The translations under genes were made by a program, and so were the position numbers. Shown piece by piece: positions 15,161 through 47,756 of a stretch of 47,908 nt of DNA. Positions within the stretch are counted from its first letter, which is position 1. Each line of letters starts with the position of its first letter. This DNA comes from Anaerolineae bacterium. Lineage in GTDB: Bacteria; Chloroflexota; Anaerolineae; Anaerolineales; Villigracilaceae. The notes below the pieces were generated by a model. The model did not search any database. It was not told the DNA's origin and worked only from the letters and a program-made list of their open reading frames with translations. The DNA is taken from assembly GCA_018648605.1 (NCBI GenBank), contig JABGQU010000005.1, positions 1-47,908 on the forward strand, written 5' to 3'.

Positions 15161-15253
15161 TCTGATTTCTACGCCCTAAAATCCATACTGCAATTATATT
15201 TACTGGGGGTAGTTGACTGACGAACCGCCCCCGGCAAGCAGGGGAGGGACGAG

Positions 15254-15290
15254 TTCTCCTCCCGCTTGCGGGGGGAGCCAGAGGGGGCTT
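15254..15290 (-). repeat. AGCCCCC-type palindromic repeat, copy 1
   Basis: On the minus strand it reads AGCCCCCTCTGGCTCCCCCC, then GCAAGC and GGGAGGAGAA. It matches copies at 28472-28507 and inside the MFS gene at 46951-46988. Confidence 0.75.
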
Positions 15291-28406: not shown

Positions 28407-28471
28407 AGCGTTTTTAGAGAATATGTGTCCCTCCCCCGCGAGCGTGGGAGGCTAGGTGGGGGCTTTTTCTT

Positions 28472-28507
28472 CGCCCCCCTCTAACTCCCCCCGATACGGG
28501 AGGAGAA
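28472..28507 (+). repeat. AGCCCCC-type palindromic repeat, copy 2
   Basis: It reads CGCCCCCCTCTAACTCCCCC, then CGATACGGGAGGAGAA, matching the copies at 15254-15290 and 46951-46988. A related GC-rich palindrome (CCCTCCCCCGCGAG and GTGGGAGG) lies directly before it at 28429-28452. Together they fill 28407-28514. Confidence 0.7.
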
Positions 28508-28514
28508 ACTCATA

Positions 28515-29612: not shown

Positions 29613-29642
29613 GATCTCGGCTTGGGATTATACCGCTTTTTT

Positions 29643-29711
29643 CCCTCACCCCCAGCCCCTCTCCCGCAAGCGGGAGAGGGGAGTCTGAGTGTAGCGAAGA
29701 CGGGGTGAGGG
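29643..29711. repeat. CCCTCACC-type palindromic repeat, copy 1
   Basis: CCCTCACC (29643) and GGTGAGGG (ending 29711) flank a perfect 12-bp hairpin, CCCCTCTCCCGC-aa-GCGGGAGAGGGG (29656-29681). It abuts the stop codon of the solute-binding gene. A relative lies at 41268-41311. Confidence 0.7.
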
Positions 29712-41223: not shown

Positions 41224-41354
41224 TAACTCATATTACGTAGTGATGGGCAATGAACTGTCGTTTTCCCTCATCCTAACCTTCTCCCAAAGGGAGAGGGCGG
41301 AGGGTGAGGGCAGCCCCAAAGTCTGTCAAAGGCATCTTCTCATAACATCAGTTA
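41224..41354. repeat. 131-nt MITE-like element with TAACTGAT-type ends
   Basis: TAACTCATATTACG and CATAACATCAGTTA are inverted repeats matching at 11 of 14 positions and resemble the ends of the element at 25411-25651. Inside lies a CCCTCATCC/GGTGAGGG palindrome (41268-41311) like the one at 29643. Confidence 0.65.
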
Positions 41355-46490: not shown

Positions 46491-47756
46491 TTACTCTTCT
46501 ACTTTTACCAGGTAATATAAGCCCAGCACCCCCGCGCTGAGGACAGCGAGAGCGAACCCGACCCCAACTTGGTCGGCGAGAAACCCGAGCATCGGTGCGA
46601 AGATAGCCGTAAGTATCGTGCTGAACTGCGCTTCAACGGAGAGTCCCGATGCCATGATGCGGCTATCAATTTGGTCGCTGATATAGGCGACGTTCATCGG
46701 GCGGCGTAGGCTGCGCAGGGCGTAGAAAACGAGAAAGACGATGATAGAGAGAATCGCCCAATTTGCGGAGGTGGCGAAACCGGCGATGAAGAGCATCCCT
46801 GCGCCGAAGAGGAAAGAGAGATTGATAGCACGCCCCAAGCTGGGAAAACGCTCGCTGAATCCGGCCGCACTGCGGGAGGCGTAGCTGGTGAAGAGATAGA
46901 TGACGAAGTAGACCAATCCGATCAGGACGGCGCTGCGTTGCATATCGCTAAGCCCCCCTTGTATTCCCCCCGTAAACGGGGGGAAAAGCTTGAAGACGAC
47001 GAGCGAGAGAGCGAAAGTCTCCAGAATGGGTTGGAGATAATCTTTTGTGGATTTGAATAATGCGCCGAAAAGAGAGCTGTTCAGGATGGAACGCAGAGCA
47101 AGCCGATTGGCAAATATCCCGCTAAAGTCGCGTAGGGTCTTTTTGGTCTGGTTCCAGATGTCGCTAAACGGGATACGTTGAAGATCGCCATCCAATGCTT
47201 TGGGGTACGAGAGCATGTTGAATAAATCCAAAGTATAGGGAATTATTGCCGCCAAAAACATGATGCGATAACTGCCCGTGTAAAAGACGAGGGCCGCCGC
47301 GATGAGGGCGTTGAGCGCGGAGCCAAGCTGGGAGAAAGAGCGCGTGCGTCCGTAATAGGCGACTTTGAAATGCTCGCGCTTGGTCATTTTGAGATGCTCG
47401 AGAATGAGGGCTTTGTGCGTGCCAGAGCGGAAGGCTTCGCCGAATGCGAAGAGAATCATGGCGAGCGCGTAGAGGGGAAAAGTGGCGAAAAGATAAAAAA
47501 TGACGAAGGAGATCAGGTAGGAGACGAAAGCCATGACCATCGCCTTGCGACGCCCGAAAGCATCGGCAAAGACGCCGGTGGGGATCTCGAGGATATTCGT
47601 CGCCACATCGCGGATGGAGTAGAGGAAGCCGATCTGAAAAAAGCTCAGCCCCGCTTCACGGAAAATGAGAATGATGAAGGGGTCGAAGAAGCGCAGGTTT
47701 TTGAGAAAACCGTAGGCGGCGAAGCGGGGGAAGAGTTTGTCGTTTTTTAGGTTCAT
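46491..47756 (-). CDS. MFS transporter with in-frame repeat insertion
   Basis: This 421-residue membrane protein has about 12 spans of the major facilitator fold. The start reads FAAYGFLKNLRFFDPFIILIF and the A-like motif between spans 2 and 3 is GVFADAFGRRKAM. Residues 256-269 (KLFPPFTGGIQGGL) are encoded by a palindromic repeat found elsewhere only between genes. They lie in the loop between the central spans, so the protein may still fold. No ribosome site is evident before ATG 47756. Substrate unknown. Confidence 0.87.
   Translation of the reverse strand: MNLKNDKLFPRFAAYGFLKNLRFFDPFIILIFREAGLSFFQIGFLYSIRDVATNILEIPTGVFADAFGRRKAMVMAFVSYLISFVIFYLFATFPLYALAMILFAFGEAFRSGTHKALILEHLKMTKREHFKVAYYGRTRSFSQLGSALNALIAAALVFYTGSYRIMFLAAIIPYTLDLFNMLSYPKALDGDLQRIPFSDIWNQTKKTLRDFSGIFANRLALRSILNSSLFGALFKSTKDYLQPILETFALSLVVFKLFPPFTGGIQGGLSDMQRSAVLIGLVYFVIYLFTSYASRSAAGFSERFPSLGRAINLSFLFGAGMLFIAGFATSANWAILSIIVFLVFYALRSLRRPMNVAYISDQIDSRIMASGLSVEAQFSTILTAIFAPMLGFLADQVGVGFALAVLSAGVLGLYYLVKVEE
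46951..46988 (-). repeat. AGCCCCC-type palindromic repeat inside a coding region, copy 3
   Basis: On the plus strand it reads AGCCCCCCTTGTATT, then a perfect TTCCCCCCGT-aa-ACGGGGGGAA palindrome (46964-46985). It matches intergenic copies at 15254-15290 and 28472-28507. It keeps the reading frame of the MFS gene. Confidence 0.8.

Follow-up and report, generated by a model that had tools for sequence, protein, structure and literature searches.

BIMEs are paired REPs of enterobacteria. Rickettsia palindromic elements (RPEs; Ogata et al. 2000, 2002, cited in PMC10969869) are described in the citing review as dispersed palindromes with a length of about 150 bp and a conserved peptide, some of which lie in frame in unrelated genes. 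The GTAG/CGTC REPs are, according to PMC3733652, short stem-loops which are mostly intergenic and often form inverted dimers, with some intragenic copies, including copies in DNA-repair genes; this paper also mentions differing REPs at about the same recB site in X. campestris and X. oryzae, as well as GTAG repeats in Chloroflexi, with a GTAG family in T. roseum.

Here we present a palindromic repeat of an Anaerolineae bacterium (Anaerolineales, Villigracilaceae) which, judged by codon alignment with 31 empty orthologs, is inserted in frame in an MFS transporter gene, together with a survey of its family in the genus. The window is the whole analyzed stretch of 47,908 nucleotides (contig JABGQU010000005.1 of assembly GCA_018648605.1), and all coordinates refer to it unless a contig is named.

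The repeat unit and its family

The repeat unit in the MFS gene occupies positions 46952-46988 (plus strand). It is 37 nt long and consists of a CCCCCC arm, a spacer and a hairpin with complementary 10-bp arms, which reads TTCCCCCCGT-AA-ACGGGGGGAA at 46964-46985 (plus strand). The consensus of this Z-type unit, derived from copies at other places in the genome, is GCCCCCCTCTAACTCCCCCCGTAAACGGGGGGAGAAC, also of 37 nt. A related Y-type unit occurs in the same genome, and Y and Z units often form inverted pairs. The MFS copy scores 46.7 bits with covariance model R1, the training set of which includes the MFS copy itself and other copies of the same genome. For this reason R2, a second model, was trained on 20 typed units that lie on other contigs; a check confirmed that no copy from the window is among them. 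With R2 the MFS copy scores 34.2 bits (E 2.6e-6) and three intergenic copies of the window score 35.5-45.3 bits. A model-free BLAST search of the own genome, with the region as query, found three other places that are 83-86% identical across 35-36 nt (E 3.2e-5 to 7.3e-4). The sequence at 46952-46988 belongs to a dispersed family of REP-like repeats that form hairpins.

One of the intergenic copies is a Z-type unit at 15253-15288 (minus strand, R2 38.5 bits), with a possible degenerate inverted partner at 15223-15250 (plus strand) that matches R2 weakly (12.3 bits, E 0.3). A second Z-type unit at 28473-28509 (plus strand, R2 35.5 bits at 28473-28508) forms an inverted pair with a Y-type unit at 28427-28463 (minus strand, R2 45.3 bits). 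The initial annotation had placed a palindromic element at 46951-46988 within the MFS gene and the same element type between genes at 15254-15290 and 28472-28507; R2 and BLAST bear out the former with the borders given above, and both intergenic copies are real. A second palindrome type (CCCTCTCCC / GGGAGAGGG-like) is present in the window at 29640-29700 and 41265-41310; in several congeners it is found in frame within PriA and CofE.

Nine genomes of the genus were compared, among them the window's own genome (G000) and Candidatus Desulfolinea nitratireducens (G006). At E <= 1e-4 with R1, at least 49 copies were found in G000 and at least 44 in G006, and at least 5, 5, 5, 3, 2, 1 and 0 in the seven others; these are lower bounds, as 150 candidates were scored per genome (150 of 936 in G000) with a model trained on G000 copies. 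By these lower-bound counts the family is frequent only in the two genomes that bear the MFS insert. The 55 best units of G000 (E up to 4.0e-4) comprise 40 without a spanning open frame, seven in supported genes and eight in frames judged spurious, a split made without genome-wide gene calling. As is typical of REP-like elements, which are stem-loops of 20-40 nt, the units are stem-loops with many copies, mostly outside coding regions and often in inverted pairs. The consensus unit of either type is free of stops in four of six frames.

The stem shows compensatory changes: 92.9% of 239 cells are paired and 23 cells are changed on both sides, values reached in none of 500 shuffles, a signal that is in part the difference between Y and Z units, by which the rows are related. 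Two other measures did not exceed the shuffles, namely the number of pairs with a change on both sides (4, reached in 94 of 500 shuffles) and the number of further pair types (7, reached in 500 of 500). In a pattern search, CCYTCYCCC-N-GGGRGARGG palindromes were found in all nine genomes with 7 to 48 copies each, and the reversed pattern, used as control, gave no copies except one in G007; among the matches listed are the PriA sites in G006, G002 and G001, as well as the CofE site in G006.

The 33-nt insertion in the MFS gene

The host gene (46491-47756, minus strand) encodes a protein of 421 amino acids with a PF07690 match at E 1.1e-14. Codon alignment places the insertion, 33 nt or 11 codons, at 46953-46985 (minus strand), corresponding to residues 258-268 (FPPFTGGIQGG). 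The codons in excess of the orthologs are TTC CCC CCG TTT ACG GGG GGA ATA CAA GGG GGG, with native codons on either side, and the reading frame is open across the insertion. An unbroken frame had been proposed from the sequence together with an encoded range of residues 256-269; the open frame stands and the range is corrected to the inserted codons 258-268. Because AAG (AAGC on the plus strand) is present at both ends, the border of the insertion can slide by 3-4 nt. This flanking repeat of 3-4 nt is too short to prove target duplication and may be due to chance.

Orthologs were taken from two sources. Of 150 related genomes 125 gave a match, of which 16 others at 58-91% identity were aligned and remote ones of about 25% were left out; GTDB species genomes contributed 25 loci. 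As nine of the 41 loci duplicate a protein, 32 distinct orthologs are compared. They are 45-88% identical in the best tblastn segment (the closest 91% in the related-genome search). In 31 of the 32 there are zero residues in the 11 insert columns, the single exception being Ca. D. nitratireducens. The empty orthologs come, by record title, from MAGs of Anaerolineales, WOR-3, Bipolaricaulota and Atribacteria. R2 applied to the 32 distinct loci (161 kb, the nine duplicates left out) gave an in-gene match in one locus only, that of Ca. D. nitratireducens (L007, E 0.014); L007, L012 and L015 have further matches, all of them outside the MFS gene. The alignment thus supports the insertion that the initial annotation had suspected, at a length of 11 residues; distant orthologs with the same residues, which would speak against an insertion, number zero among those aligned, and the sole carrier is a repeat-rich congener.

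An AlphaFold2 model of the protein built with 26 sequences has a pLDDT of 86 and a pTM of 0.86, and the best Foldseek matches in the PDB are MFS-type transporters. The predicted helices around the insert comprise residues 218-251, a short helix 254-257 and then 271-295, and residues 262-266 fall below a pLDDT of 50. In the model the insert appears as a low-confidence loop, between TM7 and TM8 by helix count, which in the usual MFS topology would lie outside the cytoplasm. The earlier placement of the insert in a loop of a membrane protein agrees with this predicted structure.

The second carrier and the origin of the insert

In Ca. D. nitratireducens (L037, with a protein identical to that of L007 of G006) an insert is found at the same codon and in the same phase, reading TTC CCC CTG TTT ATG GGG GGA AAC CAG GGG GGG. 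This copy is decayed, with a flank shorter by about 9 nt and three residue changes relative to the segment in the window. Both MFS copies have four deviations from the consensus in common. Of the 37-nt units of both genomes 86 were compared. None of these deviations is present in 74 of them, one in five units, two in a single unit and three in four units; the full set is confined to the two MFS copies. When 49 units of G000 are compared with the G006 MFS copy, the G000 MFS copy is the closest with 7 differences, the next unit having 10, and in the reverse comparison with 37 units of G006 the G006 MFS copy ranks only third (7 differences versus 6 and 7).

The gene trees place the two carriers apart. 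In the MFS gene tree, calculated with the insert region left out, G000 groups with the empty G004 (99/96) and G006 with the empty G002, G003 and G008 (97/95). PriA also groups G000 with G004 (95/93), whereas DnaE places G004 with G008, G003 and G002 (100/99). Since the gene histories conflict, the trees do not decide between one and two origins. The conflict of the MFS and PriA trees with the DnaE tree over G004 suggests gene exchange within the genus. In a window of 30 codons from alignment codon 241, G000 is closer to G006 (74%) than to G004 (68%); this is the case in 5 of 27 sliding windows, the insert window included, and is a weak hint.

Two independent insertions of the same family at one hot site in G000 and G006 would account for a gene tree that demands two changes, and both genomes are rich in the family. 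CofE and PriA loops with differing palindrome variants at one position across species provide a parallel, and three of the four deviations are present in four other units. We consider two insertions rather unlikely: none of the 84 other units has the four deviations in full, orientation and phase are identical in both MFS copies, and a Pro of nearly every empty ortholog is replaced by Val in both carriers. On account of the four common deviations a single insertion is likely from the sequences, followed by local recombination or loss, one of which a single origin needs because the MFS tree separates G000 and G006.

Explanations other than an insertion were weighed as well. Pro/Gly-rich loops are common, and a lineage-specific loop expansion could resemble the repeat by chance, but the match to R2 at E 2.6e-6, obtained without use of the MFS copy, the BLAST matches in the own genome and a length step of exactly 33 nt render this very improbable. 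Both assemblies consist of more than 200 contigs and the G006 record is a metagenome assembly, which could raise the suspicion of a chimaera at the repeat; such an artefact is hardly credible for a unit of only 37 nt, below the length of ordinary sequencing reads, with homologous flanks that are in frame and with an insert at the same codon in the assembly of a second species. It is also improbable, if somewhat easier to conceive, that the hairpin is kept for a role in mRNA or DNA (e.g. stability or binding) beyond mere tolerance by the protein. The complete 10-bp arms of the window copy and two stem changes in G006 that keep G-U pairs in the coding-strand RNA would fit such a role, but there are two copies only and the G006 segment has three residue changes.

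As the explanation of the whole we regard it as highly probable that a REP-like element was inserted in frame in the Ca. Desulfolinea lineage and tolerated in the TM7-TM8 loop. A non-autonomous element would have entered the MFS gene in frame in the lineage of Ca. Desulfolinea and relatives, presumably as a single-stranded hairpin mobilized in trans by a HuH/Y1 (RAYT-like) transposase. Its survival may be explained by a length that is a multiple of three bases, by the absence of stops from the frame used and by the Pro/Gly-rich stretch that it contributes to this loop. Near-neutral tolerance rather than a new function would describe its state, and in closer relatives the insert would have been lost or recombined away.

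A search of the own genome with PF01797 gave three Y1_Tnp matches: L078 in a short frame, L079 inside a longer frame and L080 with an internal stop. No convincing repeat unit was found near these three matches (one at 6.8 bits, E 0.95) and no transposase flanked by repeat units was found in G000, in an assembly that is fragmented; a mobilizing gene is not claimed because no convincing unit accompanies the Y1 domains. The match of L079 (G000 C36:1354-1710) lies in a frame of 552 amino acids, the first part of which is regulator-like, and this frame could be a fusion or a long frame by chance.

Other in-frame copies and comparison with known systems

Further in-frame copies, the search for which had been suggested together with the annotation of the MFS insert, were found in both repeat-rich genomes. 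A spanning open frame is present at 15 of the 55 best units of G000, and seven were accepted in six genes: MFS, PyrC dihydroorotase (an inverted pair), CofE, DnaE, FolP and a PMT_2-type membrane protein (C175). Weaker matches in G000 (E 0.002-0.005) are in Maf, a luciferase-like enzyme (C208) and PriA. In G006 seven of 49 units lie in six genes: MFS, PyrC (pair), a YgiQ-type radical SAM protein, SecA, a TlyA-type methyltransferase and a GHMP kinase. The PyrC insert is common to G000 and G006, with a differing loop in other congeners, and human CAD is without 16 residues at its position. Of the CofE insert 13 residues are missing from the best solved structure. At the respective inserts relatives have 14 fewer residues in Maf, 7 fewer in FolP and 14 fewer in TlyA; in DnaE 8 residues are missing in seven of seven aligned congeners, in a linker that is variable anyway. 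For the C175 membrane protein, the YgiQ-type protein and the GHMP kinase the support consists of Pfam ranges, the Radical_SAM_N match of the YgiQ-type protein being split into two stretches. The luciferase-like enzyme had zero PDB matches at E 1e-25. In SecA (L129, G006 C54) palindrome-like residues continue beyond a Z-type copy, and the region exceeds that of solved SecAs in length; this copy is a candidate, at a position that aligns with a long gap in the solved structures. Two peptides recur, PPFTGGxxGG (MFS, PyrC, DnaE) and SPPLAPPASGGRT (CofE, C175). With about a dozen conserved genes affected in two genomes, of which eight were compared with relatives, and with loops that contain different palindromes in different species, the evidence suggests that in-frame insertion is frequent in the genus.

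Units at gene starts or in spurious frames were dropped by eye, in G000 eight of the best 55 (C187, C207:6824, C184, two in C97, C194, C40 and C154) and in G006, of 49, those of L121, L124, L136, L138 (two), L139 and L140. Below the best 55, C148, C187:790, C203, C66, C12, C59, C184:5646 and others were dropped. PpsA, G6PDH, the C103 membrane protein and QueG were excluded because their palindromes are doubtful or belong to another type. Such other types of palindrome are seen in frame at the N-terminus of G6PDH (L111, G000 C104), in a PpsA-like protein (L095, C33) and in a membrane protein (L106, C103). The proposal that most in-gene copies use one frame pair was abandoned as well, since FolP, the C208 enzyme, SecA, TlyA and the GHMP kinase depart from it.

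Loops with different palindromes in different species were observed in CofE and PriA (loci compared: PriA L158-L163 and L167; CofE L168-L172 and L184-L208). Among the nine genus genomes CofE is nearly whole in five (G000 included), a fragment in one and without match in three. In all five nearly whole copies one codon position is occupied by a palindrome or a stretch resembling one: G000 has the Z type, G006 and G008 have the CCCTCTCCC type, G002 has a CCTTCCCCC type and G001 a degraded one. As the stretches of G002 (25.2 bits, E 7.8e-4) and, weakly, G006 (E 0.035) match R2, they are variants of related C-rich palindromes and not wholly separate families. In a wider set 97 of 120 genomes had a CofE match, and the best 30 loci were read (five genus loci and 25 more). 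The loops of four loci fold strongly, at -49.5 (L191), -53.7 (L195), -43.6 (L201) and -35.2 kcal/mol (L203), values given without a shuffled control; other loci among the 30 have merely a short loop, e.g. VAGDDEWV. In PriA one loop contains a long palindrome in G000, G004 and G006, other palindromes in G003, G002 and G001, and almost nothing in G008. A second PriA loop has Z-type copies in G000, G006, G003 and G002 (R2 E 2.5e-5 to 4.9e-4), and no Z-type copy in G004, G008 and G001.

This pattern in CofE and PriA may have arisen by insertion more than once, by recombination that replaced one palindrome with another, or by the divergence of an insert of old date. Tentatively, and with somewhat less than even confidence, certain surface loops of conserved Anaerolineales proteins could be seen as re-usable landing pads in which palindromes of different variants or families are replaced or re-inserted at one codon position, other relatives having a short empty loop, with the MFS insert as a young single case. 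Our confidence, below even from the start, was lowered slightly because the CofE insert of G002 also weakly matches R2, which makes the variants less separate. If true, selfish hairpins would be entering the essential proteins of free-living bacteria in a continuing flow that respects the reading frame.

The MFS gene, with 31 empty and two filled orthologs, offers a clean before-and-after case for the probable conversion of a mobile hairpin into predicted protein sequence in a transporter gene of Anaerolineales. Comparison of sister species makes it testable whether selfish palindromes are neutral additions to proteins and whether certain loops are preferred. For annotation, inserts of the PPFTGG or SPPLAPPASGG type in such proteins can be repeat-derived and call for caution.

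In-frame palindromes as such are already known from the RPEs and the GTAG/CGTC REPs; new are the repeat family and the re-used loops. The titles and beginnings of abstracts covered by the literature search contain no description of this family or of in-frame palindromes in Anaerolineales, nor of such re-used loops beyond the recB remark in PMC3733652. The initial annotation had likened the MFS insert to the RPEs as an example of repeats that become protein sequence. This is apt as an analogy: like the RPEs as described in the review, the repeats are dispersed palindromes of which a part lies in frame inside unrelated genes, the in-frame insertion being proven here by empty orthologs (31 of 32). 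Membership in the RPEs is not claimed: by their description they differ from the present unit of 37 nt, which is REP-like and C/G-rich and gives peptides that vary by gene, strand and frame.

The resemblance to the GTAG/CGTC REPs, as portrayed in PMC3733652, lies in short stem-loops that are mainly intergenic, form inverted dimers and include an intragenic minority. The terminal tag is absent as a rule, GTAG being present in 1 and CGTC in 4 of the 55 best units when sought in the outer 20 nt of either unit end, 8 nt of flank included. Unlike in RAYT-mobilized GTAG REPs, no RAYT flanked by units was found among the three Y1_Tnp matches of the fragmented assembly. With BIMEs the family has in common two related unit types, here Y and Z, in inverted pairs; it differs from them in sequence, in having units without a known binding partner and in that no linked RAYT was found.
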